Part shown: positions 1 to 33,251 of the stretch, one piece after another
Numbering within the stretch: the stretch's first letter is position 1
Layout of the letters: each line of letters opens with the position of its first letter
Source of the DNA: Opitutia bacterium
GTDB lineage: Bacteria; Verrucomicrobiota; Verrucomicrobiia; Opitutales; UBA953
NCBI GenBank assembly: GCA_947377865.1
Contig: CANCHK010000014.1
Span: 1 to 43,918, forward strand
DNA: 43,918 nucleotides
Direction of reading: 5' to 3'
Position numbers and translations under genes: made by a program
The notes under the pieces: model-generated
Seen by the model: only the letters and a program-made list of their open reading frames with translations
The model's database searches: none
What the model was told of the DNA's origin: nothing

Positions 1-132
1 TGGATTGAGGGTTTTTCGGGCTTAAAGGCCATGTGGGACGCAGGTCAGGAGGGCTGTCGAGGCATAGACCCCAAAGCCCCCCGCCTTCCTGCTTGCAAGT
101 GAGAATTGTTATGCCCAAAACCCACTTTTGCA

Positions 133-2100
133 ATGAGCAACAAGGCCCACAACCCACAAGGTGGTAAAATCAACTCCCTGCAGGCCGCCATCGACTTGGT
201 CGCCACGGGTCAGCCAGCCTTCTGCCTCCACCAAGCCTGGGGTATCGGCGTCATCCGCGCCTATGATGAAGCCACCAAGCGCCTCACCGTGGATTTCCCG
301 GAGCAAAACAAGAAGGCCCACGCCATGGACGCCGCTTTCTTCCTCGGCAAGATCGAGGTCATCAATCCTAACGGCATCGTGGCCAAGGCCTACGGAGACG
401 CCACCAAGGCCGAAGTCGCCAACATGGTCGCCAACGATCCCGCCGGCGTCGTGAAGGCCCTGCTCGCCGAATACCCGACCGGGGAATGCACTTCCTACGC
501 CCTCGAGGCCAACCTCGACCGCGTCTACTTCGCTTCCCTACCTGCAGGCAAGGATCGCGCTACCTCCTTCAAGGCATGGTGGACCAAAGCTCGCGCTGCC
601 CTCCGCAAGGACCGCGCCATCCTCGTTCCCGAGCGCAAGGGCGGCCTTTACGCCCTCCTCGAAGCCCCCAAAGATCTCGGTGAAGACCTCTTCGCCCAGT
701 ACGAAAGCGCCCCTAATTTCGAACGTAAACTCGCCCTCCTCGAAGAGCTCGCCGGCAGCGCCGCCGCCGAGACCCGCTCCGCGGCTACCACCGCCAACCT
801 CGAGAAGGTTTCCGCTGACCTCATCAAGGAGATCAAGAAGCTAGAGACCGCCCGCAAGCGCGACAATCTCCCCGCCATCCTCGGCGGCATCTGGAATCGT
901 GATAAGTTCTTCCGCTCCGCCGTCGAGAATGTCGAGACCGTCAGCCCGACCGCCTCGGAAATCATCGCCCTCTGCACCGAAAGCGACCTCGCCTTCGTCG
1001 CACTAAACATCCCTCACACCACCGAGAAGATCCGTAGCCTGCTCGACCTCGTGCGCGCCCATCACGGCGACAACTGGTCCGAGCGCGCCTTCGACCTTCT
1101 CCGCAACCGCGATATCGGCGGCACCAAGAGCGGCTCCGCCAAGCTCGTCTCCGAATCGATCGCCTACCTCTGCGACCAGGAACTCGCCGCCGCCGTCTCC
1201 GCCCGCTTCGCCCAGTGGCTTGAGACCCGCGAACTGCGCGCACCGGTCATCATCTGGGTCATCAAGAACCGCGACTCTAAGAAGTACGCCGATATCGTCG
1301 GCCGCCTGATTAACCCTTCCCTGCTCGGCGCCATCCTCTCTTCGATCGACACCGAGTCCCTCGAGTCCAATTCCACGGCCCGCATCCCGCTCGCCAATGA
1401 ACTCATCAAGGACAAGGAGCTCATCGCCAACATCCTCGTCCCTGCCGACGGCAAGAAGGCCGACAGCGAGACCATCTTCGACCTCACCCGCACGATGATG
1501 AGCAGCCAGGGTTTCGATGAGATGACCAAGAAGGCCCTCCTCTCGCGTCTCGCCAAGATCGAGCCGCACGTCCAGCGCCTCGCCAAGTCCAAGCATTCCG
1601 GCTCCGAAGCCGAGGAAAAGGAACTCCTCGTCTCCAAGCACTCAAAGGAAGAAAAAGAGCGCGAGCTCGAGGACATCGTCAAGGTGCGCCTCCCCGCGGT
1701 CAAGGAAGCCATCCAGATCGCCAAGGAGCACGGCGACTTGAAGGAAAATTCCGAATACAAGATGGCCCGTCAGGACCATGACACCCTCGCCGCCCGTCGC
1801 GCCGAGCTCGACGCGCTGCTGAAGAAGGCCAAGGTCACCGATTTCAAGGAAGCCAACACGGACACCATCAGCGTCGGCTCCAGCGTGGTCCTCCGCCGCG
1901 GCTCCGACCAGACGGAGTTCGCCTACGACCTGCTCGGCGCCTGGGACGGCGAACCGGAGAAGTACATCCTCTCGTATATCTCCCCGCTGGCCAAGCAGTT
2001 CCTCAACCACAAGACCGGCGAGACCTTCACGACGAACATCAACGGCAAGGCTGAGTCCTGGACCGTCGTCCGCATCACCCGCTGGGTCGACAAGCGCTAA
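133..2100 (+). CDS. greA: Large GreA/GreB-domain transcription elongation factor with long N-terminal extension
   Basis: This 655-residue protein ends in a complete GreA/GreB module. A coiled coil (about residues 517-575) carries the tip motif GDLKENSEY at about 534-542, including Asp535 and Glu538, the two acidic residues Gre factors insert into the RNA polymerase secondary channel to stimulate cleavage of backtracked transcripts. An FKBP-like C-terminal domain follows. The first ~510 residues are an extension: a small domain around residues 20-70 (AWGIGVIRAYDE) and then a helical Ala/Glu/Lys-rich region. Ordinary GreA has about 158 residues; chlamydial GreA is also greatly enlarged, which fits a PVC origin. 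I chose ATG 133 because an in-frame TTG at 106 adds only nine unconserved residues. No Shine-Dalgarno sequence is visible at either start. A strong terminator follows the stop. The role of the extension is unknown. Confidence 0.88.
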   Translation: MSNKAHNPQGGKINSLQAAIDLVATGQPAFCLHQAWGIGVIRAYDEATKRLTVDFPEQNKKAHAMDAAFFLGKIEVINPNGIVAKAYGDATKAEVANMVANDPAGVVKALLAEYPTGECTSYALEANLDRVYFASLPAGKDRATSFKAWWTKARAALRKDRAILVPERKGGLYALLEAPKDLGEDLFAQYESAPNFERKLALLEELAGSAAAETRSAATTANLEKVSADLIKEIKKLETARKRDNLPAILGGIWNRDKFFRSAVENVETVSPTASEIIALCTESDLAFVALNIPHTTEKIRSLLDLVRAHHGDNWSERAFDLLRNRDIGGTKSGSAKLVSESIAYLCDQELAAAVSARFAQWLETRELRAPVIIWVIKNRDSKKYADIVGRLINPSLLGAILSSIDTESLESNSTARIPLANELIKDKELIANILVPADGKKADSETIFDLTRTMMSSQGFDEMTKKALLSRLAKIEPHVQRLAKSKHSGSEAEEKELLVSKHSKEEKERELEDIVKVRLPAVKEAIQIAKEHGDLKENSEYKMARQDHDTLAARRAELDALLKKAKVTDFKEANTDTISVGSSVVLRRGSDQTEFAYDLLGAWDGEPEKYILSYISPLAKQFLNHKTGETFTTNINGKAESWTVVRITRWVDKR

Positions 2101-3124: not shown

Positions 3125-3262
3125 GTTATTCACAGGGTCGGCGCCCGGGGGTTTATTCGGCCCCATTCTGGCGATTAAAAAAGGGCTTATTGCTTGGCAA
3201 TCCTTGGCTTTCTTGGCTACTTAAACCTACCCCGACGCGGAGCGAAACGCTCCCCTCACCCG

Positions 3263-6200
3263 ATGCTTATCCAAGAGTCCCGCACCTACAAACTGGCCAA
3301 GGCGGCCTTGCTTGCCGTTCTAATCGCAGTGACTCCGGTCATAGGAAACCTCCCTGCACAGAATCGTCCTCTGCCCGGCGCCCAGAAGCAGGAAGAAGAC
3401 CCGCTTTCTATTATTTATAAAGCCGCGGTAAAAAGCTTCGAGGAGAAGAATTACAAGGAAGCCCTCGCCCAGTTCGAGGAACTCGACGCCAAGGCCGTCG
3501 ACGTTGAACTCAAACTTAAGGCCGTCGTCTCCTTCCAGAAATCCCTCTGCTACTTCTTCACCAAGGATTGGCCACGCGCCCAAGCCGAACTCACCGCCTT
3601 CCTAGACAAGTACCCAAAGGGCACCGAGGACTTCCTGTCCGACAGCGATAACCGCCGCGGCACCGCCGAGCTACTGCTTATCGAAGCCCTATCGAAACAG
3701 GGCAAATGGGAGCTCGCCCTCACCCGCCTCGAGAAGATTCGCACCAACACCCTCGCCCGCCCCGAGGAACGCGTGAACGCCTTCACCTTGTCCGCCCAGA
3801 TTATCGTCGAACGAGCCAAGAGTGGCCAAGAAGACGCCAAGAAAGCCGCCTATTCTCAGGCCATCGGCCTTCTAAAACAGGCGACCGCCGACGGCATCAA
3901 CACCCCAGAACGCCGCGAAGCCGCCTACAAGCTGGTCGAGATGTACACTAAGCTCGGCCTAGCCAAGGAAGCATCCCAGCTGAAGAACGAGATCGACGCC
4001 AAGAGCAGCGGCTCGCCCGTGGAGGTCGTCCGCTCAAACTTCCAACGCCTTGAAATCGGCGACGCCCGTTTCGCCGCCGCCGAATCTGCCGCCGACGAAG
4101 CCTTCCGCGCCGACTTCTACCGCCAGGCGCTCACCAACTACCAGGGGACGCTACGCCGGGCCAATCTGACCAGCTCCTTCGGTCGTGCCATTGAAGCCAA
4201 GCAGGCCGAGGTGGAAACGATGACGAAGAATTTTCCCAAGCCGAAGCCTGAGCAGGCCGCCAACATCGAGAAGGCCAAGCAAGAAGTGGCCCAATTCAAA
4301 AAGATTCAGGAGGAGTTCAACGTGAATAAGGATTACGACGCCTTCATCTCTTACCGCATCGGACTCTGCCTGCTCGAACTAAAACGCCCCTGGGAGGCCC
4401 ACGTCGCCTTCCTAGATATCTTCGAGAACAGCCCTGGATTCAGCCGCATCTCCGGCGCATACTACTATCACATCCTCGCCCTGCGTCGTATCGGCCGCAA
4501 CAACGAAGCCCAGGCGAAGTGCAAGGACTTCATCGCGAAGTTCCCGAAGGACGACCAGGTCTCCGCCATCGCACTAATCCTCGGCGACATCTCACAGGAA
4601 CGCGAAGATTTTCCCGAAGCGATCGAACACTACAAGTGGGTCAAGGCCAACGTGAAGACCCTCACCCCTGAGGTGGAAGAAGAAATCGATTTCCGCCTCG
4701 CCTCATGCCTCTTCTCCCAAGTCGACTGGGCGCCCGCCCAAAAAGCCTTCGAGGAGTTCCTCAAGAAGCACGACCGCTCGCCGGTGCGCCAGCAGGTGCT
4801 CTACATGAATGCCCTCTGCTCGTTCTTCCAGGGAAAGTACAAGGAAACCAAGGTCGATTTCGACAAGTACCAACAGGAATACCCGAAGGGCCAGTTCATC
4901 CCCGACGTCCGCTATCGCCAAGCCATCGTCAAGTTTGGCGTCAACCCGCCCGACATCGCCGGCACGATCAAGCTCTGCGAAGAGTGGATCAAGGACTACG
5001 CCAAGGACAACACGGACGAGGTCATCGCCCAGACCCCGGAAGTCCATACGCTGATCGGCGACGCCAACATCCGTCTCGCCGACGAGATCGACAAGAAGGT
5101 CAAGGCCGCCGACATTGACGTCCGCCTCAATGCCCGCTCGCCTGACAAGGCCAAGTTCGTAGAGATCAAGGCCAAACTCGAGAAGGAAAAGGAAGCCGTC
5201 ACCAACAAGGCCATCGACGCCTATGAGGCCGCCGCCAAGAGCGCCCGCACCAATCCTCAGGCGCTTGAATTCGTCCTCGGCGAACTCCGCAAGCTCCTCC
5301 CTGGCCGCGGCGAGCACAAGCGCATGCGCGACCTGTTCAAAGAGATCTTCGACTGGAATCACAACGACCCGAAGGCGATGACTTACCTCTACGAGGTCAT
5401 CCGCTCCACCGAGCGCATGGGTGACATGCCCGAATTCGCAGCCGAATCCGAGAAAGTCCGCAAGAAGTTCAGTGCTCAGCTTGCTGACGCCCGCAAGAAG
5501 GTCGATGAACTCGAGCGCCGCGACAAGGTCACCAAGGAAGAAGTCGACGCTGCAAAAACCGGGACCAAGAAACTCTCCGCTGAACTCGAAACCGAACTCG
5601 CCAAGGTCGAAACCAAGCGCCAAGCCTCCATCGCTGACCAGAAGAAGCGGGCCCTCAAGATTCTTTCCGACGCCGTCTCCGAATCCATCAACGACCGCAC
5701 CCAAGAAGGCACCGAGAAACTCATTGTATTCCTCGCCGAAAAGCTCGCTCGCAAGATCAAGCGAGTGAAGCCGGGTACCAAGCCCGAGCCGAGCGCCTAC
5801 ACCAGCGCCGACGCGGAGAAGGAACTCGTCAAGCTACTCCGCCTCGAGGAACACCGCGATTCGCTCGTTGCCCAGGCCCGCGGCTTCTTCGCCCTAGGAC
5901 AGCTCGGCGTTTTCACGCGCGAGCCCGAAAAGACCGCCGCCAATTTCGCCAAGATTGCCGCCAACTACAAGGCCGAGGAGCTCAATCCCACCATCCTTGG
6001 ACTGGTCGGCGATAACCTTCTCACAAAGGGAGACCATAAGAAGGCCTCCGAATACTTCACCTACATCCTGGAGCACTCCCGCTCGTCAGAATACGCCGAC
6101 TACGGTTTCGCCGGCCTCGCTGAGATTGCCTACGCCAACAAGAAATACGCCGACGCCCTCTCGCTCTGTGACGAGGCCATCGCCAATAATATCCTGATGT

Positions 6201-6601
6201 CGAAGGAGCTCGACCTACGCTTCACGCGCGCCCGCTCGCTCGCCGAGCTCTCAAAGTACGCCGAGGCGAAGAAGGAGTTCGAGGAGATCGCCAAGACGAA
6301 GGAATGGCGCGGCGAGAAAACCGCCGCCTCGCTCTACTGGCTCGGGCTGATGGCCGAACGCCAGGCGACCGACGAAAAGGGCTACAACGAGGCCATCGCC
6401 TACTACCGACGCTGCTACATGACCTGGAAGAAATATGAGGTCTGGGCCGCGAAGTCTTATTTCGCTTCCGCCAAACTATTCGCCACGAAACTCAACCAGA
6501 AGGACGCCGCCAAGCTGATCCTAAAGGAGATGTTCGAGAAGGACCGAATCAAAGACACCCGCGAAGCGGAAGAAGCCAAAGCCTTCCTCCTAGGACTCTG
6601 A
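3263..6601 (+). CDS. Very large exported TPR protein, first gene of an ExbB/ExbD operon
   Basis: A 1112-residue protein that starts with a signal peptide (positively charged QESRTYKLAK, then AALLAVLIAVTPVIG). The rest consists of many helical tetratricopeptide-like units, for example AAVKSFEEKNYKEALAQFEE near the N-terminus and a FALGQLGVF...KIAANY block near the C-terminus. A charged coiled-coil segment lies around residues 720-810. TPR arrays hold protein partners together, so this is probably a periplasmic scaffold. Five genes follow on the same strand with spacings of 4-52 bases and end with ExbB, ExbD and ExbD, so a role in an envelope motor complex is likely. I chose ATG 3263 because it places the signal peptide at the start; an in-frame TTG at 3194 would add 23 residues ahead of it. 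No enzymatic motif is seen. Confidence 0.82.
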   Translation: MLIQESRTYKLAKAALLAVLIAVTPVIGNLPAQNRPLPGAQKQEEDPLSIIYKAAVKSFEEKNYKEALAQFEELDAKAVDVELKLKAVVSFQKSLCYFFTKDWPRAQAELTAFLDKYPKGTEDFLSDSDNRRGTAELLLIEALSKQGKWELALTRLEKIRTNTLARPEERVNAFTLSAQIIVERAKSGQEDAKKAAYSQAIGLLKQATADGINTPERREAAYKLVEMYTKLGLAKEASQLKNEIDAKSSGSPVEVVRSNFQRLEIGDARFAAAESAADEAFRADFYRQALTNYQGTLRRANLTSSFGRAIEAKQAEVETMTKNFPKPKPEQAANIEKAKQEVAQFKKIQEEFNVNKDYDAFISYRIGLCLLELKRPWEAHVAFLDIFENSPGFSRISGAYYYHILALRRIGRNNEAQAKCKDFIAKFPKDDQVSAIALILGDISQEREDFPEAIEHYKWVKANVKTLTPEVEEEIDFRLASCLFSQVDWAPAQKAFEEFLKKHDRSPVRQQVLYMNALCSFFQGKYKETKVDFDKYQQEYPKGQFIPDVRYRQAIVKFGVNPPDIAGTIKLCEEWIKDYAKDNTDEVIAQTPEVHTLIGDANIRLADEIDKKVKAADIDVRLNARSPDKAKFVEIKAKLEKEKEAVTNKAIDAYEAAAKSARTNPQALEFVLGELRKLLPGRGEHKRMRDLFKEIFDWNHNDPKAMTYLYEVIRSTERMGDMPEFAAESEKVRKKFSAQLADARKKVDELERRDKVTKEEVDAAKTGTKKLSAELETELAKVETKRQASIADQKKRALKILSDAVSESINDRTQEGTEKLIVFLAEKLARKIKRVKPGTKPEPSAYTSADAEKELVKLLRLEEHRDSLVAQARGFFALGQLGVFTREPEKTAANFAKIAANYKAEELNPTILGLVGDNLLTKGDHKKASEYFTYILEHSRSSEYADYGFAGLAEIAYANKKYADALSLCDEAIANNILMSKELDLRFTRARSLAELSKYAEAKKEFEEIAKTKEWRGEKTAASLYWLGLMAERQATDEKGYNEAIAYYRRCYMTWKKYEVWAAKSYFASAKLFATKLNQKDAAKLILKEMFEKDRIKDTREAEEAKAFLLGL

Positions 6602-6605
6602 CCCC

Positions 6606-7622
6606 ATGCGCCTCACTTTCCTCCTTCCCGCCCTTGCGCTCCTTGCCGCCGCTACGTCGACGGCCCAGACCTTCGTCTTCAAGGGCGAGCGATGGGAGAT
6701 CAACGATCCATTCGCCCTCGACAACTCAATCCCACCGAAGCCCATCGTCGACCCCAAGAAAGGAACCGTCAACGCGATCAAAGGCTCCATCGAACGCACC
6801 AGCATTACGGGCGGCATCGAGGCGACACTGACGCGCAAGCTCTCCGAGGTCACCGAGGTGATTTGGCCGCCGCCTGCCCGACTCAAGGAAGCCCAGGCCA
6901 ACGTCAGCCGTGGCGAACCTGCCAAAGCCCTCGACAACGTCGAGGCCGTGCTGAAGTTCTTCGAACCGATTAAGAACGTCCCCGGCTCCTGGTGGGTCAA
7001 GGCCTCCATCGTCAAACTCGACGCGCTCGACCGACTGCAGAATGACGCCGCCACGGCCAGTTTCCTCGATGCGTTCGAGAAGGAGGATGCCGCCAAACTC
7101 CCCGAAGTCGCGACACAGATCCAGCTCGCCCGCCTGATGCAGCGGGCACGCAAAGGTGACCACGAGTCGGTCATCAAGGAATCGACCGAACTCCTCGCCA
7201 AGGTCGAAAGCGCCGAACTCCAAGCCCGCCTCCATATCGTGAAGGGCAACTCCCTCCTCGCCGCCAAGAAATATGAGGCCGCGATGACTACCTACCTCCG
7301 CGTGCCGGTCTTCTTCGGCTCCGAGACGGAACTCATCCCCAAGGCCTTACTTGGCGCCGCCCGATCATTCCGCGGCATGGACAGCCCCGCCCTCCGCGAC
7401 CAAAAACTGGAAGCCGTCTCCAATCGCTATCTGTACGACATCATCGTTTCTTACCCAGTCTCCAAGGAGGCCGAAGAAGCGAAAGCCATGCTACCCAAAG
7501 AAGAACGCGCCAAGGCCGAAGCCGACCAGAAGAAGATCGCCGCCGGCGGGCCGCTTCCCGAAGGCGTTATCATGGCCAAACCCAAGCTTGCCGACGAAGA
7601 GAAGGTTGAAGGCAATAAGTGA
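6606..7622 (+). CDS. Exported helical/TPR-like protein of the ExbB/ExbD operon
   Basis: This 338-residue protein has a clear signal peptide: MRLTFLLPALALLAAATSTAQ with a plausible cut after Ala-Gln. There is no lipobox cysteine, so it should be soluble in the periplasm or bound to partners. The mature part starts with a short FKGERWEIND segment, then a helical region with TPR-like units (AQANVSRGEPAKALDNVEAV; LHIVKGNSLLAAKKYEAAM) and ends in a charged tail. It begins 4 bases after the stop of the giant TPR gene and lies 52 bases before exbB, so it is almost certainly co-transcribed. I do not recognise a named family. Its position between a TPR scaffold and a TolQ/ExbB channel suggests an accessory subunit of that complex. 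Confidence 0.78.
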   Translation: MRLTFLLPALALLAAATSTAQTFVFKGERWEINDPFALDNSIPPKPIVDPKKGTVNAIKGSIERTSITGGIEATLTRKLSEVTEVIWPPPARLKEAQANVSRGEPAKALDNVEAVLKFFEPIKNVPGSWWVKASIVKLDALDRLQNDAATASFLDAFEKEDAAKLPEVATQIQLARLMQRARKGDHESVIKESTELLAKVESAELQARLHIVKGNSLLAAKKYEAAMTTYLRVPVFFGSETELIPKALLGAARSFRGMDSPALRDQKLEAVSNRYLYDIIVSYPVSKEAEEAKAMLPKEERAKAEADQKKIAAGGPLPEGVIMAKPKLADEEKVEGNK

Positions 7623-7674: not shown

Positions 7675-8460
7675 ATGAAGATGAACTTACGCTCCACCTC
7701 CCTCAGTGCCGTCTTCCTCGGCTTGATGACCGTCGCCGCCTCGGCCCAGGAAGCCGCTGGCAAACACGAGAAGACCCTTATGGACCTCTTCCACGAAGGC
7801 GGCTGGGTCATGTACCCGATCACCCTCTGCTCCGTGGCCATGATCTGGTTCATTGTCGACGGCTTCATCCGCACGAGCGCCGGCAAGCTCTACCCGGTCG
7901 AACACGTCACCCAGCTCCGCGAACTCTTCAAGAAGGGCGACTACGTGGGCGCCTACGCCTTCGCCAAGACCGCTGGTTCTCCCGTCGCCGACGTCGTCCG
8001 CGCCGGTGTCGCCTTCACCCCGGATGGCAAGACCATGACCGAAGAGGCCATCCTCTCCGAAATCACCCGCATCCAGGGCGAACTCAAGGGCCGCTCCTCC
8101 TACCTCTCCGTGATCGGCGTCTGCACCCCGATGATCGGCCTCACCGGTACCGTGACGGGCATGATGAAGGCGTTCGAAAAGCTCGGCTCATCTGGCGTTG
8201 GTGACCCCTCTAAGCTGGCCGAAGCAATCGGCGAAGTGCTCGTGGCGACCGCCTCGGGCCTATTCATCGCAATTCCGGCATTCATGTCCTACTACCTGCT
8301 GGCCAACCGCATCAACAAGGGCATCCACGACATCCAGGAGATTGCCACCAGCCTGTTCCGTGCCTTCCCCTACGACGAAGTCGCAGGTCGCAAGGTCGGC
8401 GACGAAGAAATCTACGCCGCCAAGCCAGATTGGAACGCGTCTTCCAACGTCCAGTCGTAA
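7675..8460 (+). CDS. exbB: MotA/TolQ/ExbB-family proton channel protein
   Basis: This 261-residue protein has the ExbB/TolQ layout. An N-terminal signal-like helix (residues 5-23) is followed by a first core membrane helix around GGWVMYPITLCSVAMIWFIV (39-60), a cytoplasmic helical loop, and two close C-terminal helices, VIGVCTPMIGLTGTVTGMM (about 143-163) and EVLVATASGLFIAIPAFMSYY (about 186-206). The GLTGTVTGM and ATASGLFIAIPA segments are the most conserved part of the family and line the proton path. ExbB/TolQ pentamers work with ExbD/TolR dimers to use the proton motive force on a periplasm-spanning partner. Two exbD genes follow directly. Many PVC and Bacteroidota ExbB proteins carry the extra N-terminal helix seen here. 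Which partner is driven cannot be read from this gene alone. Confidence 0.93.
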   Translation: MKMNLRSTSLSAVFLGLMTVAASAQEAAGKHEKTLMDLFHEGGWVMYPITLCSVAMIWFIVDGFIRTSAGKLYPVEHVTQLRELFKKGDYVGAYAFAKTAGSPVADVVRAGVAFTPDGKTMTEEAILSEITRIQGELKGRSSYLSVIGVCTPMIGLTGTVTGMMKAFEKLGSSGVGDPSKLAEAIGEVLVATASGLFIAIPAFMSYYLLANRINKGIHDIQEIATSLFRAFPYDEVAGRKVGDEEIYAAKPDWNASSNVQS

Positions 8461-8492: not shown

Positions 8493-8933
8493 ATGGCAGG
8501 CGGAGGAGGAGGCGGAGAAGGGGAACCAGAGTTCCAGGTCGCGCCGATGATCGACGTGCTCTTGGTGCTGCTCATCTTCTTCATGTCCATCACCTCATCG
8601 CAGGTGCTCAAGGTGGACAAGAATATCTCCCTGCCCGTCGCCGCCAACGGCGTAAAGCGCGACGACAAGGCCGCCGCAGGATTGATCAATATATCGTGGG
8701 ACAAGACCACGGGCCAGGCGAAGTACAAGCTCGACGACCGCGAACTCGACCCGAACGACAAAGACGGCATCGCGAAGGAACTCTCGGACCGCAAGGGAAC
8801 CAACGAGAAGTACCGCTTGCTGATCCGCGCCGACAAAGAGTGCCACGCCAAGTACATCTCCAAGGCGCTTGAATGGGGTGCTGAAGCCGGCATCGACAAC
8901 ATCGCCTTCTCTGGCCTCAACCACGAAGAATAA
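8493..8933 (+). CDS. exbD: ExbD/TolR-family proton channel subunit, copy 1
   Basis: The 146-residue protein has a short glycine-rich cytoplasmic N-terminus, one membrane helix and a periplasmic domain, as in ExbD/TolR. The helix follows the signature FQVAPMIDVLLVLLIFFM, with Asp21 at the position of the single proton-carrying Asp of the family (Asp25 in E. coli ExbD). The periplasmic part contains a LLIRADKECHAKY segment typical of the ExbD fold, where K-x-D facing a paired helix closes the domain. It lies 32 bases after exbB and 3 bases before a second exbD. Sequence identity to copy 2 is low outside the helix, so the two probably form a heteromeric pair or serve different roles. Confidence 0.92.
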   Translation: MAGGGGGGEGEPEFQVAPMIDVLLVLLIFFMSITSSQVLKVDKNISLPVAANGVKRDDKAAAGLINISWDKTTGQAKYKLDDRELDPNDKDGIAKELSDRKGTNEKYRLLIRADKECHAKYISKALEWGAEAGIDNIAFSGLNHEE

Positions 8934-8936
8934 ACC

Positions 8937-9380
8937 ATGAAGCAACGCGAACAGCAGGCGGAGGCCAACCCTGGCTTCCAGATTGCCCCGATGATCGACG
9001 TGGTCTTCGTCATCATGCTCTTCTTCATGGTCATGGCCGGTGCGGTGAAGGTCGAACATGAGCTAAAGACCACTCTCCCTGGCAACGCTGAGACAGCCAA
9101 AGAGACTGAACTGCCCGACGAGGTCACCATTGGAGTGAGCGAGACCGGCGAAGTCACCCTCAACGAGGACCCCGTCGGCGCCCCCGGGGATAAGCTCCTC
9201 GAGAACCTCTACAACCAAATGAAGCAGATGGGCCAAGCCGCTGAGCAGTCCAAGACTAAGCTGCTCATCACGGTCCAAGCCGAAGAGAACGCCCGCTACG
9301 AGCGCGTCATCAACGTCCTCGACTGCCTCGCCAAGGCGAATATCACGAACGTCACGTTCGCGGTATCGGATACGGAGTGA
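8937..9380 (+). CDS. exbD: ExbD/TolR-family proton channel subunit, copy 2
   Basis: This 147-residue ExbD/TolR protein has the signature FQIAPMIDVVFVIMLFFM with the catalytic-type Asp21, and a periplasmic domain containing KLLITVQAEENARYERVINVLD. It starts 3 bases after copy 1 and is the last gene of the run, which ends in a hairpin terminator at 9401. One TolQ-like plus two TolR-like subunits is also the make-up of the Agl gliding motor of Myxococcus and of several PVC Exb operons. That similarity is of arrangement only. No TonB or TolA gene adjoins it, so the energised partner must be encoded elsewhere. Confidence 0.92.
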   Translation: MKQREQQAEANPGFQIAPMIDVVFVIMLFFMVMAGAVKVEHELKTTLPGNAETAKETELPDEVTIGVSETGEVTLNEDPVGAPGDKLLENLYNQMKQMGQAAEQSKTKLLITVQAEENARYERVINVLDCLAKANITNVTFAVSDTE

Positions 9381-26573: not shown

Positions 26574-27650
26574 TCAAGGCGACTTGCGGACGCCCTTACG
26601 CAGCCAAGAAACTGAAGTGGCGGCGCCGCCCGAGGCCGCCACGCAGGCCTGCAGGAATGCCTGCGGCTCCTGTTGAACCGTGAACAGGTAAAGCCGCGGG
26701 CCACCCCCGCGTTGGGCCTTGGCGAAGGCATCCAGCCATTCGCGTTGCCAAGGAGCATGGCCTTTCTGCACCCCGCCGACCTTATGGTATGAACTATCCG
26801 AATAGATCAGCTTCGGCTCACCCTTCTTGGCCTCATAGAGCCGGACCCCATCTTGGAAATCGGAGAAGACCACCAAGGCGTCGTAAGGCTCCTCCAGCAG
26901 CCGGTCCATCCAAGCGCCCAGCGAACCCTTCTCGCAAGCCACGCGGACCTTTACCTGTACCGCGCGACCGTTCGGCGTCAGCGTTTCGACCACGGTCTGC
27001 GTGGGACCTTCGCGTAATCGCGGGGCATCGCCATGGAAGCGCCGGCCATAGACGACCACGTCCCCCAGGCCCACAACCCGCGCCCCGTCGAAGCGGAACA
27101 CATCGGCGTCGGGGAACTCCTTGCGGATCTCCGCCTCGACCCGCGGGAGATAGCTCCGCATCGAACCGGAGCAATCCAGGTAAACCGCGACCCGTTTCGC
27201 GCGGATAAACGCGCCCATCACCGGTCGGCCGACGAAGCCAGCCCCGTTGCCCAGACCGGCGCCGAGACCTTTGCCGCCGAACCCGCCAAGTCCACGCCCC
27301 ATCCCACCCTTCCCTTGTCCTGCGGATAAACCGGCGAGCCCCATCTCCGGCGTCATCGCCTTCATCGGTGGCAACGCCAGCGTCGCGCTGGCCGACTTCG
27401 TCGTCAGCCGTTTCTGCGGCGTCGGCACCTTAGGCTGACGCTGGACCGGATGCGTGGCCGTCGGACCGCCCGACTTGCCTCCGGCGACCGCATGCGAAGT
27501 GAACTCCTGCTTCGGCGGCATCGCTGGCTGGCGAAAGACAATCCAGCAGGCTGCAACGACGAGCAAGCCATGGAGCCCCAGCGAGAGCAGCAGACTACGC
27601 AGCGAGCGTGCCTGCGGACGACGTCCGATCACCGATTCCGAAATGGCCAT
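26574..27650 (-). CDS. VWA-domain protein with TonB-like N-terminal membrane anchor (short paralogue)
   Basis: A 358-residue protein. Residues 18-39 form one membrane helix, LLSLGLHGLLVVAACWIVF, whose Ser23-x3-His27 matches the Ser16/His20 motif by which TonB binds ExbB-ExbD. A linker rich in Pro, Lys, then Gly (about 42-145; TKSASATLALPPM at 84-96) would span the periplasm. The C-terminal VWA-like domain has the metal site DCSGS (159-163) and FSDFQDG with Asp264. VWA domains bind ligands through a metal ion. Its paralogue lies upstream on the same strand, separated by a terminator, and the thioesterase gene starts 37 bases downstream. I infer an energy-coupled periplasmic VWA protein. No substrate can be named. 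Confidence 0.8.
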   Translation of the reverse strand: MAISESVIGRRPQARSLRSLLLSLGLHGLLVVAACWIVFRQPAMPPKQEFTSHAVAGGKSGGPTATHPVQRQPKVPTPQKRLTTKSASATLALPPMKAMTPEMGLAGLSAGQGKGGMGRGLGGFGGKGLGAGLGNGAGFVGRPVMGAFIRAKRVAVYLDCSGSMRSYLPRVEAEIRKEFPDADVFRFDGARVVGLGDVVVYGRRFHGDAPRLREGPTQTVVETLTPNGRAVQVKVRVACEKGSLGAWMDRLLEEPYDALVVFSDFQDGVRLYEAKKGEPKLIYSDSSYHKVGGVQKGHAPWQREWLDAFAKAQRGGGPRLYLFTVQQEPQAFLQACVAASGGAATSVSWLRKGVRKSP

Positions 27651-27746
27651 GCCTCCAGTCTACGATGGCAGGCGACGGCTCAAGAGACGGAAGACACGGA
27701 GAATACCTGCCCGTGGACCAGACGTTGACCCTAGAAGCGGGCCAAC

Positions 27747-27777
27747 AAAAAGGCGAAGCCAGGTGGCTTCGCCTTTT
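27747..27777 (-). terminator. Terminator between the two VWA genes
   Basis: A perfect 13-bp stem (27748-27760 with 27765-27777) around a 4-base loop is followed on the minus strand by a run of five T. It begins 20 bases after the stop of the long VWA gene, so the short paralogue downstream probably has its own promoter in 27651-27746. The stem also ends in TTTT on the plus strand. Confidence 0.88.
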
Positions 27778-27796
27778 GAAAAACCCGAAGCTCGCC

Positions 27797-29815
27797 TTAT
27801 CGGCTCGGGGCGGCGCCGCGGGCATTTCCCGTGGTCGAAGGCGCCGCACGGAAACGAATCAACGCATTAGCGGCATCAGCCGTCGACGGGGCGGATAACT
27901 CAATGACAAAGAAACCAGGGGCGGCTTTATTCGGAGTCACCGAAACAATTTTCGTCGAGGGAGGAAAACGGGCGTCCTGAATGAGCATGCCGGGCCTGAG
28001 ATCGACGGAGCCCGAAACGTTTTCGATGGTCTTCGAGTCCTTGGCAAGCGTACCGACAGCTTGGATCAGCGGCGTGAAGGTAAATACGACATTAGTAACG
28101 TCTTCCGTCAGCGGAGCGGAAATCTTCATCGGTTTTACGCCCACACGCTTCGTCAACTCACCCTCCTTGACTTCCTTGAAGGTAGGCAGCTCGACGATGA
28201 ATGCGTCCTTGGGGACACCCTTTCCGGAAACAGGCATGCCGACGTACATGTCGTCGAAATCAGCCGGCCGGCCAGCCCCGGTCTCTTTTGTTACGGCACG
28301 TAAGGCCCCGCCGTTAGGGATTAAATTCGAAATCAATGCCTCACCTTTCTTTGCGGAGCCAAATTTCACCAAGATTGCCGAACCTTCGGAGGCGGAGACA
28401 CAACGCTGCAAGACGGTACCAGGCTTATTCCCATAGGTTTTCACGGTACTGATCAGGTAAAGGCGGGGTCCTTTGTTTTCGCGGGCGCCTGCGAAAGTTT
28501 TCTCCCATTCGTCTTCCCACTTTTTTTCTTCAGGGAGGCGCCTATCGCCTCCATTATTGCAAACGACGCGGCCGGAAGCGGCCGCAGTGAGAGGCTTGCT
28601 GAGAGTGAAATTAACGTTTTCCTTAATCTCGGCGACCGTCGTACCCACGGGAATGCCCGACCCTAGTGCCACCATGCCAACAATGAGGCCGGTGGTGTCC
28701 TTGCACTGCACGATTGGCTGACCGGAAGCCCCGCCGCTAGCGATAAGTGTGACGGAGCGGGAGAAGCCTGACCCGCCGGTATTACGGTCGCTGAAGACCT
28801 CAGGCGGCGTGGCCTTCATGCCTTTGTCAGGCTTGTAAGCCGGCACATTTCCAGCCGCTTTGGTCCGGATCTGCATGACTCCGTCCTGAAAATCAGAGAG
28901 AATAATCAGCGCATCGTAGGTACGATCGTCCTTTAGAACGTCGAGCCAGGCACCGACGGAAAATTTTCTGAAATTATCTCCGTGCTTCTTGAAAATAGCA
29001 CGCCCCTGAGACGTCAACTTCGCTGGATTGGTGTCAGTGGGCGCGATTTCACCCTTGGCGTTCTTCTTCACGGCGACGGATGGAGGATCAAAGAAGGACT
29101 TACCCTTAAATTTATCCCCTCCGACTACCTCGCCGTCCTGGACTTTGATAAATACGCCATCACTCAGATACACGTCGGCATCCGGGAACTGGACGCGGAT
29201 CTCGGCCTCGACGCGCTCGAGGTAAGGCAACATAGACGCCGAGGCGTCGAAGTAGACCGCCAGGCGCTGGGAGAAGATGTTCGCACCCATGACCGGCTTC
29301 GCGACGAAGTTCTTGCCGCCGCCAGAGCCCATGCCCTTTCCAGCGCCGATGCCACCGCCAGAGCCGCCGCCGAAGCCCTTGGAAGCGCCGCCGGCCATCG
29401 CGCCGGAAATCATCGAGGAAGCCGAGGCCGAGCTCGGCATGTCGGGTAGCGCGATCGAGGCTGAAGCACTCTTGGAAGTGATGCGGGTCGTCGTCTTGGC
29501 GAGCGACTTGACATTCTTGGGCTGCACCTTGCGCTCGGTGCTCTTGACGCGTTCACCGCCAGAACCGCCGCCCGCGCCCGTGGCAAAGGTGTTCGCATCC
29601 TTCTTAGCGTTGTCGGTGACCGTCGAGACGACGAAAGCTGCAGCGACGAACACCAGCAGGACGTGGATTGCGAGCGAGACCGAAAGACCGCTGGCTCCGA
29701 TGCGCTGCCAGAACGAGCGCTTCATGCGCTTCGAACCAAGGGAGTCGGTTTCGATCTTCTTCAGGTTAGCCGGAGGGACGTCGCCTGGAGGGGGCGTGGG
29801 AGTTTCTTCGCTCAT
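27797..29815 (-). CDS. VWA-domain protein with TonB-like anchor and three extra repeat modules (long paralogue)
   Basis: A 672-residue paralogue of the short VWA gene. A basic segment (MKRSFWQRIG) precedes one membrane helix with TonB-type Ser47-x3-His51 (SLAIHVLLVFVAAAFVV). A Gly/Ser/Lys-rich linker follows (about 75-170, with SKSASASIALPDMP as in the paralogue), then the VWA-like domain: FDASAS (189-194) and LSDFQDGV with Asp308. Compared with the short copy it has an insertion of about 80-110 residues after SDFQDGV and a C-terminal extension of about 180 residues. Both contain related modules of the form VGMxVxGxGxPxxTxV...LSxPxT (about 355-419, 510-580, 586-655). The gene is first in the minus-strand run and ends with a terminator. 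Ligand unknown. Confidence 0.8.
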   Translation of the reverse strand: MSEETPTPPPGDVPPANLKKIETDSLGSKRMKRSFWQRIGASGLSVSLAIHVLLVFVAAAFVVSTVTDNAKKDANTFATGAGGGSGGERVKSTERKVQPKNVKSLAKTTTRITSKSASASIALPDMPSSASASSMISGAMAGGASKGFGGGSGGGIGAGKGMGSGGGKNFVAKPVMGANIFSQRLAVYFDASASMLPYLERVEAEIRVQFPDADVYLSDGVFIKVQDGEVVGGDKFKGKSFFDPPSVAVKKNAKGEIAPTDTNPAKLTSQGRAIFKKHGDNFRKFSVGAWLDVLKDDRTYDALIILSDFQDGVMQIRTKAAGNVPAYKPDKGMKATPPEVFSDRNTGGSGFSRSVTLIASGGASGQPIVQCKDTTGLIVGMVALGSGIPVGTTVAEIKENVNFTLSKPLTAAASGRVVCNNGGDRRLPEEKKWEDEWEKTFAGARENKGPRLYLISTVKTYGNKPGTVLQRCVSASEGSAILVKFGSAKKGEALISNLIPNGGALRAVTKETGAGRPADFDDMYVGMPVSGKGVPKDAFIVELPTFKEVKEGELTKRVGVKPMKISAPLTEDVTNVVFTFTPLIQAVGTLAKDSKTIENVSGSVDLRPGMLIQDARFPPSTKIVSVTPNKAAPGFFVIELSAPSTADAANALIRFRAAPSTTGNARGAAPSR

Positions 29816-29952: not shown

Positions 29953-30030
29953 TGCAGGGTGGAGCAGCCCGGTTAGCTCGTCAGGCTCATAACCTGAAGG
30001 TCGTAGGTTCAAATCCTACCCCTGCACCCA
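29953..30030 (+). tRNA. Initiator tRNA-Met (anticodon CAT), CCA encoded
   Basis: A full cloverleaf: acceptor 29953-29959 with 30020-30026, D stem GAGC/GCTC, anticodon stem TCAGG/CCTGA around CTCATAA, T arm GTAGG-TTCAAAT-CCTAC, then C and CCA (30028-30030). The purine-pyrimidine A11-U24 pair and the overall sequence identify it as the initiator rather than elongator Met or Ile2. Two features differ from E. coli tRNA-fMet: position 1-72 is a matched U-A pair instead of the C-A mismatch, and the anticodon-stem pair 29-41 is A-U, so only two of the three G-C pairs remain. The D loop is one base longer. Confidence 0.93.
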
Positions 30031-30217
30031 ATTTTAAGCCCTTGAAGGGCAGCCACTTAAATGAGTGGCCAAAAAGATTCGGAATAGGCTTGAACCGGCC
30101 GGAATTAATTGCACGGTATCAGGTATTAAATTTGTCCTACGGGACAATGGGGTAAGTAAGATAAAGCAGTAAAAAACAGGCGGCTTGCATAGGGGTATGC
30201 AAGCCGCCTCCTTTTTT
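30031..30217 (+). ncRNA. Structured AT-rich region after tRNA-Met, possible small RNA or tRNA trailer
   Basis: This stretch has no convincing gene and is more AT-rich than its surroundings. It holds a series of hairpins: GCCCTT-G-AAGGGC (30038-30050), GCCACT-N6-AGTGGC (30052-30069), TTGTCC-TACG-GGACAA (30132-30147), and a strong terminator at the end (30178-30217). The third has a C(UACG)G loop, the UNCG class typical of stable RNA. Either the tRNA transcript runs on through this region and is processed, or a separate small RNA is made. I recognise no known RNA family. Confidence 0.35.
30178..30217 (+). terminator. Strong Rho-independent terminator, plus strand
   Basis: A perfect 13-bp stem (30178-30190 with 30197-30209) around a 6-base loop is followed by CC and six T. 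No protein gene on the plus strand ends nearby, so it must serve the tRNA-Met transcript or the RNA candidate at 30031-30217. Confidence 0.88.
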
Positions 30218-30298: not shown

Positions 30299-31543
30299 TC
30301 AGCCGCCGCCAGTCATCTTGGTGATGAGCGCAATCAGGGGCAGGAACATCGCAAGCACGATCGTACCGACGACCACGGCAAGGAACACGATGAGCACGGG
30401 CTCGATGATCGACGTCAGCGCGGTCACGGCGTTGTCCACCTCTTCGTCGTAGATGTCCGCGACGCGGTTGAGCATCTCGGGTAACTGACCCGTCTCTTCA
30501 CCGACCTGAATCATCGAGGTGACCATCTGCGGGAAGACTCCAGACTGCTCGAGCGGCACAGAGAGCGGCTCGCCGTCGCGAACACGGTCATGGACGCGTT
30601 CGAGGGATTTCGCGATGACAACGTTGTCGAGGGTGTCGCGGGTGATGGTGATGGACTGCAGGATTGGCACGCCGGAAGCCATCAGTGTGCCGAAGGTACG
30701 GGCAAAGCGCGAAACGGAGACAATCTGGACGAAGGAGCCAACCTTCGGAAGGCGGAAGATGATACGGTCGAAGAGCTCCTTGCCCTTCTCGGTGGCCAGC
30801 CAGCTCTTCAGGCCAAAGTAGATGCCGAAGATGACGACCGGAGTCGCCCACCAGAACACTGTGAGCAACTTTGAGATTCCGACGACGAACTGAGTCAGCG
30901 GCGGCATCTGGGTCTTCTGGCCGTCGAGCAACTTCTGGAAGGAAGGAACGACCTTCACCATCAAGATATAGACGATGATGACGGCGACGGACATAACGAC
31001 GCCCGGGTACACCATCGCGGACTTCACCTTCTTCTGGATGCGCTCGGCCTTTTCACGGAACTTCGCAAGACGGTCGAGGACCTTGTCGAGGACGCCACCT
31101 GCTTCGCCCGCGCGAATCATGTTTACGAAGAGCTTATCGAATACCTTCGGGTGAGCCTGGAGGGCTTCTGAGAGATTGTTACCTTGGGAAACGCTCTCCG
31201 CGATGTTGCCAAGGATGGCCTTAAAGGCCGGGTTGCGTTCCTGCTTGGTAATGAGTTCCAAGGCACGGAGCAACGGCAGCCCAGCGATAATCAGCGTAGC
31301 CAGCTGGCGGGTCATGATCGTCACGTCGTTCTGCGTGACCTTGGCACCGAACGAGAAACCAGCCTTAGCCGGGGCAGCAGCGGTAGCCGCGGCCTTGGAA
31401 GCACCAGCGTTGGCGGCAAGGGTGGTGACCATGAGGCCTTTCGCCATGAGCTTCTGGCGAGCCTGTTCATCGGTGGCGGCCTCAATCTTACCGGAGGTCT
31501 GCGCTCCGTTGCGGTCGATGGCGGTGTACTTATAGTCGGGCAT
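30299..31543 (-). CDS. pilC: Type IV pilus / type II secretion inner-membrane platform protein (PilC/GspF)
   Basis: A 414-residue member of the GspF/PilC family with two repeated cytoplasmic four-helix domains (about 75-190 and 275-395). It has three membrane helices: YPGVVMSVAVIIVYILMV (about 183-200), the FWWATPVVIFGIYFGL region, and EPVLIVFLAVVVGTIVLAMF near the C-terminus. Family signatures such as ARQLATLIIAGLPLLRAL-like RQLATLIIAGLPL and GEETGQLPEML are present. The N-terminal 60 residues (YKYTAIDRNGAQTSGKIEA) are the usual start. The platform connects the assembly ATPase to the pilin fibre. ATG 31543 was chosen from that N-terminus; its leader lacks any G and overlaps a CCTAACC at the end of the upstream ATPase gene. 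It is the last gene of the four-gene motor block. Confidence 0.93.
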   Translation of the reverse strand: MPDYKYTAIDRNGAQTSGKIEAATDEQARQKLMAKGLMVTTLAANAGASKAAATAAAPAKAGFSFGAKVTQNDVTIMTRQLATLIIAGLPLLRALELITKQERNPAFKAILGNIAESVSQGNNLSEALQAHPKVFDKLFVNMIRAGEAGGVLDKVLDRLAKFREKAERIQKKVKSAMVYPGVVMSVAVIIVYILMVKVVPSFQKLLDGQKTQMPPLTQFVVGISKLLTVFWWATPVVIFGIYFGLKSWLATEKGKELFDRIIFRLPKVGSFVQIVSVSRFARTFGTLMASGVPILQSITITRDTLDNVVIAKSLERVHDRVRDGEPLSVPLEQSGVFPQMVTSMIQVGEETGQLPEMLNRVADIYDEEVDNAVTALTSIIEPVLIVFLAVVVGTIVLAMFLPLIALITKMTGGG

Positions 31544-31568
31544 GGGAGTGGTGGGGGTATTGTTAAGG

Positions 31569-33251
31569 TTAGGTGTACTTGAGGACTTCCTCGATCGAGG
31601 TGTGGCCGTCGAAGATGCAGCGGAGGCCATCTTCACGAAGCGGGCGCATACCCGACTCAATAGCCTTCTGCTTGATCACGAGAGTCGGGGCCTTCTGCGT
31701 AATAAGGGAGCGGAGCTGGTCGTTGATCGTCATCAGCTCGAAGAGGCCTTGGCGGCCCTTGTAACCCGAGCGGTTACAATCGGCACAGCCCTTGCCGTAG
31801 TAGAACTTCTTGTTGGCGATCTCGAGCGCGTCCACGTCGAGCATATTGACGACGTCCTTGTCCGGCTCGTAGGCCGTGCGGCAGGTCTTGCAGACGCGAC
31901 GCAGGAGGCGCTGGGCGAGCACGCCTTCGAGCGAGGCCGAGATGAGGAACGGCTCCAGACCCATATCGATTAGTCGGGTGACGGCGCCGGGCGCGTCGTT
32001 GGTGTGGAGCGTGGAAAGCACGACGTGGCCGGTCAGGGACGCCTGCACGGCGATCTGGGCGGTCTCGAGATCTCGGATTTCTCCGACCATGATGGTATCC
32101 GGGTCCTGTCGGAGGAACGAACGCAGTGCGGCGGCGAAAGTCAGGCCGACCTGATGATTGATCGGGACCTGCATGATGCCCTCGACCTCGTATTCGACCG
32201 GGTCTTCGGCGGTGAGGATCTTGACGTCCTCGGTGTTTACTTCACGGAGCGCAGAGTAGAGAGTGGTGGTCTTGCCGGAACCAGTCGGGCCAGTGACGAT
32301 GAAGATGCCGTTAGGGCGTCCCACCATCGCACGGATACCTTCCTTGATATCATCCTGCATCGACAGTGCCTCGAGACTCAGATTGACGACGGTCTTGTCC
32401 AGAATTCGAAGCACGACAGACTCGCCGAACTGCGTCGGCAGGGTCGACACGCGGAGGTCAATCTGTCGGCCGCTGATGGTGGTCTTGATGCGTCCGTCCT
32501 GCGGAACGCGGCGTTCGGCGATGTTGAGCGAGGAGAGAACCTTGACGCGGGCGATGACGGCCGAGGCAAGATTCTTGGGCGGCGGCGCCATCTCGTAGAG
32601 CGAACCGTCGATGCGGAGACGGATACGGAACTCATGCTCGAAGGGCTCGAAGTGAATGTCCGACGCCTTAGCCTTCACGCCTTCCTGGAGGACCAGATCG
32701 ACGAAACGGATGATCGGCGCCTGGCTAGCTTGCTTGGTGACGTCCTCGTCTGTGACAGCGACGGCATCGACTTCGCCGAACTCGCCGAGTAACTCTTCCA
32801 TCGAGGAGGAAGTGGGTTCGCCGTAGACGCGCGTAACGGCGGCCTCGACCTGGGCGGGGTCGGCGACGGCCAGCTCGATGTCACGCTGCAGGATAAAGCT
32901 AAGCTCACTGATGACGGAAGCGTTGAAGGGATCCTTCGCGAGCAAAGTCAGCTTACCGGCTTCGTCGGCGACAGGCAGGACGACGTACTTATGGGCCTGC
33001 GGAGCCTTGAGAAGCTTGGTCAGAGCCTCGCCGGGGTCGGCCGGAACGGCGGAGTAATACTGGACCTGCATGTGATCGGCGACGGCCTGGAGGATGGTCG
33101 GGCGATCGGCGAGTCCGGCATCCACGAGGCTGTCGCAAAACGACTTGCCGGTGGTGGCGTGCGACTCCCAAATCTCCTCGGCCTGGGCAGGTGTCACGAG
33201 ACCAGCCTCGAGGGCGATATCGCGGATTACGTCACTATGGTCGTCGAACAT
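31569..33251 (-). CDS. pilB: Type IV pilus / type II secretion assembly ATPase (PilB/GspE), copy 1
   Basis: This 560-residue ATPase has an N-terminal MshEN/GspE-N region (about 1-145), then the secretion ATPase core: Walker A GPTGSGKT at 321-328, Asp box [12 protein letters not shown], Walker [12 protein letters not shown] near 387-397, and His box [14 protein letters not shown] zinc site is formed by CKTC (454-457) and GCADC further on, as in GspE/PilB. It powers pilin polymerisation at the inner membrane. The ATG at 33251 follows a C-rich leader almost free of G. It lies 28 bases after pilT and 25 bases before pilC. A second PilB-like gene heads the same block, so the two may serve different pilins or act together. 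Confidence 0.93.

Follow-up and report, generated by a model that had tools for sequence, protein, structure and literature searches.

Two Anchored VWA-Like Proteins and a Motor Cluster in One Window

The window analyzed here is a stretch of 43,918 nucleotides (nt) from a freshwater Opitutia bacterium (GTDB lineage Verrucomicrobiota; Verrucomicrobiia; Opitutales; UBA953), namely positions 1-43,918 of the forward strand of contig CANCHK010000014.1 in assembly GCA_947377865.1. It holds two paralogous genes for membrane-anchored proteins with a VWA-like head, which we call vwaS and vwaL, and an exbB-exbD-exbD cluster for a proton-driven motor (Table 1); the possible coupling of the two is the subject of this work. 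The initial annotation had placed both open reading frames (ORFs) and their SLGLH and SLAIH motifs correctly, each in a single N-terminal helix, and its count of one exbB and two exbD genes was confirmed with Pfam. Our own codes for loci, genomes, contigs and families carry the prefixes L, G, C, and f.

Table 1. Genes and other features of the window, with residue numbers for parts of proteins (aa, amino acids; TM, transmembrane helix; TPR, tetratricopeptide repeat).
Feature	Position	Strand	Details
vwaS	26574-27650	-	358 aa; VWA-like domain 140-346, D159xS161xS163
vwaS anchor and spacer	TM 17-39; spacer 47-136	-	S23-x3-H27 (SLGLH 23-27); disordered Gly/Pro/Lys spacer; from sequence and AlphaFold2
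vwaL	27797-29815	-	672 aa; VWA-like domain from 172, D190xS192xS194
vwaL anchor and spacer	TM 43-68; spacer 68-169	-	S47-x3-H51 (SLAIH 47-51); disordered spacer; from sequence and AlphaFold2
Large TPR protein	3194-6601	+	similar proteins upstream in 81/90 clusters; TPR profiles match loosely
Small TPR-type protein	6606-7622	+	upstream of exbB; similar proteins upstream in 77/90 clusters
exbB/tolQ-like motor subunit	7675-8460	+	candidate driver; Pfam MotA_ExbB E = 4e-25; motor tree
exbD/tolR-like 1	8493-8933	+	Pfam ExbD E = 6e-16
exbD/tolR-like 2	8937-9380	+	Pfam ExbD E = 5e-24
tRNA-Met	29953-30030		between the VWA pair and the T2SSF gene
Terminator-like stem	30178-30209	-	14 pairs; found on both strands
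T2SSF gene	30299-31660		upstream of the VWA pair

AlphaFold2 predicted the same order of parts in both proteins, one N-terminal helix, a disordered spacer and then a folded domain, with a mean predicted local distance difference test score (pLDDT) of 72 for vwaS and 60, a lower confidence, for vwaL. The long Pro/Lys/Gly-rich spacer of the initial annotation was borne out, as the Gly-rich segments of about 90-100 residues had a pLDDT below 50 throughout the spacer limits of Table 1. The C-terminal domain of vwaS was modeled as a confident alpha/beta fold. For the VWA-like domain with a metal ion-dependent adhesion site (MIDAS) that had been annotated, the fold and the DxSxS element held, the latter in 92/92 ORFs having the window-type head and the anchor and being the only MIDAS element examined; the domain is a divergent one, and neither vwaS nor vwaL matched a Pfam or NCBIfam family at E ≤ 0.1. 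Since a Foldseek search with the domain gave no PDB match at E ≤ 0.001 (the match of highest probability among the 50 listed was the VWA domain of CLCA1, probability 0.80, E 0.05), the label comes mainly from DxSxS, the relatives and the order of alpha and beta elements in the prediction; a divergent VWA is the best reading of the predicted C-terminal domain.

Two further features of the pair were seen. Residues ~339-420 and 541-656 of vwaL form extra beta-rich stretches inside and after the domain, modeled with moderate to low confidence, which are absent from the shorter paralogues. In some relatives a third gene lies between vwaL and vwaS (L043 5097-5903, L048 5073-5840, L057 2348-3115), with the same VWA and, by eye, a signal-peptide-like start in place of the membrane anchor; it is missing in the window. 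Membership of vwaS and vwaL in the upstream secretion- or pilus-type operon (T2SSF, T2SSE) is unlikely because the tRNA gene and the strong terminator-like stem intervene. The small TPR protein before exbB has a weak similarity to Mul1B and YbgF, under the cut-off in both cases (37.8 bits for NCBIfam NF052542, whose cut-off is 75), and no function was taken from the Mul1B match; in the available text of an Akkermansia paper, Mul1A is named once, in a figure legend (PMC11790493).

Conservation and Orientation of the Anchor Helix

Relatives were collected with an anchor profile that spans the helix, the spacer and an R-I...LPD segment. This profile matched 162 of the 9714 ORFs of the loci in the set, many of which had been fetched around such genes, and 0/9714 reversed ORFs, so that a low-complexity artefact of the Gly-rich spacer is unlikely. 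After reduction of the 162 members to 62 at <60% identity, Ser and His of the Ser-x3-His motif were kept in 26/26 anchors with the window head type, and across all 62 anchors His was kept in 61 and Ser in 51 (Ala in 10, Thr in 1). A chance motif was rejected, given that only 15 of 619 control ORFs (2.4%) had Ser-x3-His in or near their best TM-like window, the controls being other ORFs with such a window rather than verified genes. The next conserved helix positions, +11 and +15, match the spacing of the SHLS motif of published transducers, and a conserved Phe (76%) follows shortly after the helix. For the D-box motif described in PMC10907165, the spacer was inspected by eye only.

As the collecting profile itself includes the motif, its conservation is biased upward, and therefore ORFs missed by the profile were also inspected. 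The window VWA head was found in 124 ORFs, 93 matching the profile and 31 missed by it; among the latter, 12 begin, as judged by eye, with a signal-peptide-like segment, nine are cut at a locus end, seven have a Ser-x3-His helix and three are without the motif (L101, L111, L118). Poor conservation of Ser and His, a doubt raised in the initial annotation, is not seen within the head type, and the three exceptions lie outside the anchor profile. In L101 (9437-10489), Asn occupies the position in the helix where His is expected.

Charges flanking the helix suggest its orientation. In 156 anchors the mean number of Lys plus Arg fell from 4.1 ahead of the helix to 2.3 behind it (more ahead in 128 anchors, as many in 14, fewer in 14), so the VWA head, judged from these charges only, should be periplasmic and not cytoplasmic. 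Residues 32-35 of vwaS read V-A-A-C and resemble a lipobox, and the helix might on that basis be a cleaved signal and vwaS a lipoprotein or secreted protein. We consider this highly improbable, as the Cys is absent there in L013, L014, L017, and vwaL, the alignment column is occupied by Ala in 21% and by Cys in 15%, and the hydrophobic stretch runs beyond the Cys.

Anchor Genes Beside Motors Outside the Window Family

Support for coupling to a motor is stronger beyond the window, in clusters outside the window family (f1 in the motor tree). The window exbB was ranked against 369 genomes of its own class and the first 67 matches outside the family were taken, 60 of these clusters being fetched through exbB and seven better-ranked ones being already in the set from the VWA search. 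In 39/60 fetched clusters an anchor gene came next after exbB-exbD-exbD in the same orientation, and one more cluster had it upstream; counting all 67 ranked clusters, it was downstream in 45/67 and upstream in two. Four of the other 20 fetched clusters stop close to the end of their contig.

Single-linkage clustering by similarity gave the head groups, of which examples were scanned with Pfam. The 39 motor-adjacent anchors carry squalene-cyclase-like (16), PA14-like (10), DUF4159 (7), and VWA_3 group (6) heads, and three of the 16 squalene-cyclase-like clusters also carry a PA14-like head. These labels differ in firmness: DUF4159 was above the Pfam cut-off in 3/3 scanned and squalene-cyclase-like in 3/4, whereas only 1/8 PA14-like heads was above it (L117, 2.3e-8), the rest being weak, GLEYA-like or without a hit. 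In the VWA_3 group, which is motor-adjacent in part, four of 11 scanned were above the VWA-family cut-off (L083, L102, L033, L186) and two below (L108, L113). The five f3 members (L216-L220) showed no VWA hit and no DxSxS, and therefore 5/6 of the motor-adjacent VWA_3 labels come from clustering alone. A Pfam VWA protein near an exbB in L114 falls outside the anchor profile and is without the His. Directly behind exbB-exbD-exbD in L225, L228, and L221, DUF4159 proteins have an anchor helix with Ala-x3-His, and the one in L221 was missed by the profile.

The same arrangement extends beyond the class. At E ≤ 1e-5 the profile matched 42/288 genomes of the phylum, own class included, with up to 17 copies in one genome. 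Ser-x3-His was present in 20/20 anchors sampled in other classes (12 genomes), whose heads are by similarity PA14-like, VWA_3 or squalene-cyclase-like, and in 8/8 from the window family. An exbB-exbD-exbD cluster stood directly before the anchor gene in seven other-class regions, which had been chosen for their anchors. Six regions were fetched from G458, one with such a motor and the other five with PA14-like heads; that genome has five exbB matches in all and so may have more than one motor. Genomes of f85, a family in another class (L254-L259 of G458, L265 of G587, L266 of G492), have 4-17 anchor matches each, and nine sampled anchors from them bear seven PA14-like and two VWA_3-like heads.

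Dispersed Heads in the Window Family and Their Candidate Motor

Within the window family, motor and anchors occur together at the level of genomes, as expected from the initial annotation. Anchor matches were found in 61/61 family genomes (1-7 each, 218 in all, median 3), the VWA in 58/61 and the window exbB also in 58/61, as a single copy in 57 and with a second weak match in the 58th. The distance between motor and VWA was 16.5-19.8 kb in 21/21 same-contig pairs, which were transcribed by hand from match lists, and in the other genomes the two lie on different contigs or one gene is absent; this conserved spacing was set aside as evidence of coupling, being synteny only. In the same genus, G098 encodes two PA14-like-headed proteins with an anchor and spacer resembling those of vwaL (Pfam PA14 E = 0.03 for the one scanned). 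Such tandem PA14-like-headed proteins with a vwaL-like anchor were seen at L098 (8410-9774 and 9812-11197), L272, and L273.

Several observations weigh against coupling of vwaS and vwaL to the window motor. The exbB-exbD-exbD cluster lies behind two TPR genes on the opposite strand, 18 kb from the pair, with no anchor gene after it, and vwaS and vwaL, 18-19 kb away, are the nearest anchor proteins. None of the 21 window-family motor clusters (20 fetched plus the window) has an anchor gene within the examined region (for the fetched clusters, 2.5-6 kb of downstream sequence), and the window VWA head type is never motor-adjacent (0/39). Outside the family, 16/60 clusters, L221 included, lack a profile match both next to the motor and upstream and do not lie close to the end of a contig. 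The counts for the 369 class genomes speak on both sides: with anchor/VWA matches taken at E ≤ 0.001, both genes were found in 48, the anchor only in 39, the motor only in 12 and neither in 270 at a strong motor threshold (E ≤ 1e-53), and the corresponding numbers were 72, 15, 118, and 164 at a loose one (E ≤ 1e-25); 39 of the 87 genomes with an anchor/VWA match thus have no strong motor match and 15 have none at E ≤ 1e-25, in counts that ignore descent, were transcribed by hand and assume that the 369 genomes are G000-G368. At the SHLS positions where Leu and Ser would be expected, the window head type has Ala at +11 (22/26) and Val at +15 (21/26), and the AlphaFold2-predicted spacers of vwaS and vwaL contain no motor-box beta-strand. 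The motor tree, in which the window family groups with the f35 and f12 motors (local support 0.98), was rooted on other motors and has several weak deep nodes (some <0.4). Finally, the genome carries four or more exbB-like genes (window, C36, C39, C54), so that other motors are possible partners.

The last point would favor a reading in which vwaS and vwaL partner another motor, the exbB-exbD pair of C54 or that of C36, with the window cluster serving something else. We regard this as rather unlikely. At L274 4221-6329 the C54 pair is followed by a protein of its own, which has 278 aa, matches no Pfam family and shows Ser-x3-His in its helix with a Ser at +15; its likeness to TolA is one of position and helix only. 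Nine regions surrounding other motors or TonB, from this genome and two relatives, contained no anchor protein, whereas clusters of the exbB-exbD-exbD type have one beside them at the frequency given above.

The separation of the window head type from any motor also bears on whether the dispersed VWA copies are still powered. They may have kept Ser-x3-His from a transducer ancestor and now be static anchors for adhesion or scaffolding, a reading with which the unanchored VWA paralogue between the two genes of relatives and the three relatives without the motif would agree. Against it, Ser and His are kept more strictly in the window head type than in the VWA_3 group (Ser 6/11, His 10/11), and a His in the membrane would be unneeded in a static anchor, which is an argument and not a test. 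We judge static anchors improbable.

The motor tree suggests how the present arrangement may have arisen. The f35 and f12 motors mostly have linked heads, and the window exbB branches among motors having an adjacent anchored transducer. The simplest history would be that the linked head gene was lost from the family's motor operon and dispersed heads came to be used instead.

Proposed Mechanism and Its Meaning

Force transmission across the periplasm is classically exemplified by TonB and TolA. Considering all the above, we propose that vwaS and vwaL are probably force transducers anchored in the inner membrane and functionally of the TonB/TolA type, driven by the exbB-exbD-exbD motor of the window. 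The ExbB/ExbD-driven system put forward in the initial annotation is, as a whole, largely supported, though not by the window alone: the anchor beside the motor in most clusters outside the family speaks for it, and the missing neighbor in the family and the window head type's absence beside motors do not. Physical docking, energy coupling, metal binding, and a partner for the head are parts of the model that we infer. The Ser-x3-His helix, adjacent to the pair of ExbD-like proteins, would dock against the outside of the pentamer formed by the ExbB-like product of 7675-8460. As protons pass through the motor, the flexible spacer would be pulled or twisted, and the VWA head in the periplasm may hand this force on to a metal-dependent partner located either in the periplasm or at the outer membrane. 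In the window family the head gene would no longer be part of the motor operon, and one motor would serve several anchored heads (VWA, PA14-like) encoded elsewhere.

A broader model, to which we give roughly even chances, is a modular machine in which the one ExbB-ExbD-ExbD' motor of each family genome drives several anchored arms (1-7) with exchangeable heads for several periplasmic or outer-membrane tasks. The heads on the shared helix and spacer are VWA (two sequence groups), PA14-like, squalene-cyclase-like toroid, and DUF4159, and from this sharing with exchangeable heads it would follow that one power unit serves several tasks. In another class, genomes with up to 17 arms hold several weaker exbB matches. 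If one motor does drive many unrelated heads, force transduction in the phylum would work as a modular platform, and testable partners would become available for exbB-exbD-exbD clusters that have no linked transducer. The anchor profile finds such candidate partners by sequence, even when the genes are not neighbors.

Comparison With Known Systems

The vWA force-transducer class is already known, since such proteins of Tichowtungia and other PVC bacteria were published in 2025 (Mol Biol Evol, PMC12204202). As described in the main text of that paper, they have a membrane helix with a Ser/His motif (SHLS), a motor box (a beta-strand predicted behind the helix), a disordered linker of ~100 residues and a vWA head, and in PVC bacteria their genes lie often, frequently but not universally, downstream of a TPR gene, a tolQ-like gene and two tolR-like genes. 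vwaS and vwaL resemble them in the Ser/His helix, the ~100-residue disordered linker and the vWA-like head. They differ in being paralogous and encoded 18 kb away from the motor on the strand opposite to it, in the lack of a linked transducer in 21/21 window-family clusters, and in keeping only Ser and His of SHLS in their head type. The same anchor also bears PA14-like, squalene-cyclase-like, and DUF4159 heads, terms that are absent from the main text of PMC12204202. In the main texts of the open-access papers searched, we found neither other heads on this anchor nor one motor with several dispersed heads; the available text of a paper on a Verrucomicrobiota isolate lists TolQ/ExbB and TolR/ExbD genes and has nothing on these heads (PMC13274419).

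The main text of PMC12204202 also describes TPH-vWA pairs beside tolQ without tolR, whose pore helix carries an Asp and has none of the SHLS residues. They share vWA heads, often in heterologous pairs, with the proteins studied here, but the helix of vwaS and vwaL, read from the sequence, has Ser/His and no Asp, and membership in that family was rejected.

The likeness to TonB (PF03544) lies in the single N-terminal helix, the spacer across the periplasm and the proposed ExbB/ExbD partner. vwaS and vwaL are without the PF03544 C-terminal domain (no Pfam hit at E ≤ 0.1), and the TonB C-terminal domain of this assembly is on another contig (C30). The initial annotation's statement that a VWA stands in place of the TonB domain is too narrow, because the same anchor carries other heads. 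Compared with TolQ-TolR-TolA, the window motor subunits score higher with the TolQ/TolR than with the ExbB/ExbD models, all below cut-off; the VWA head is without a recognized TolA domain, and the window has two different exbD/tolR genes.

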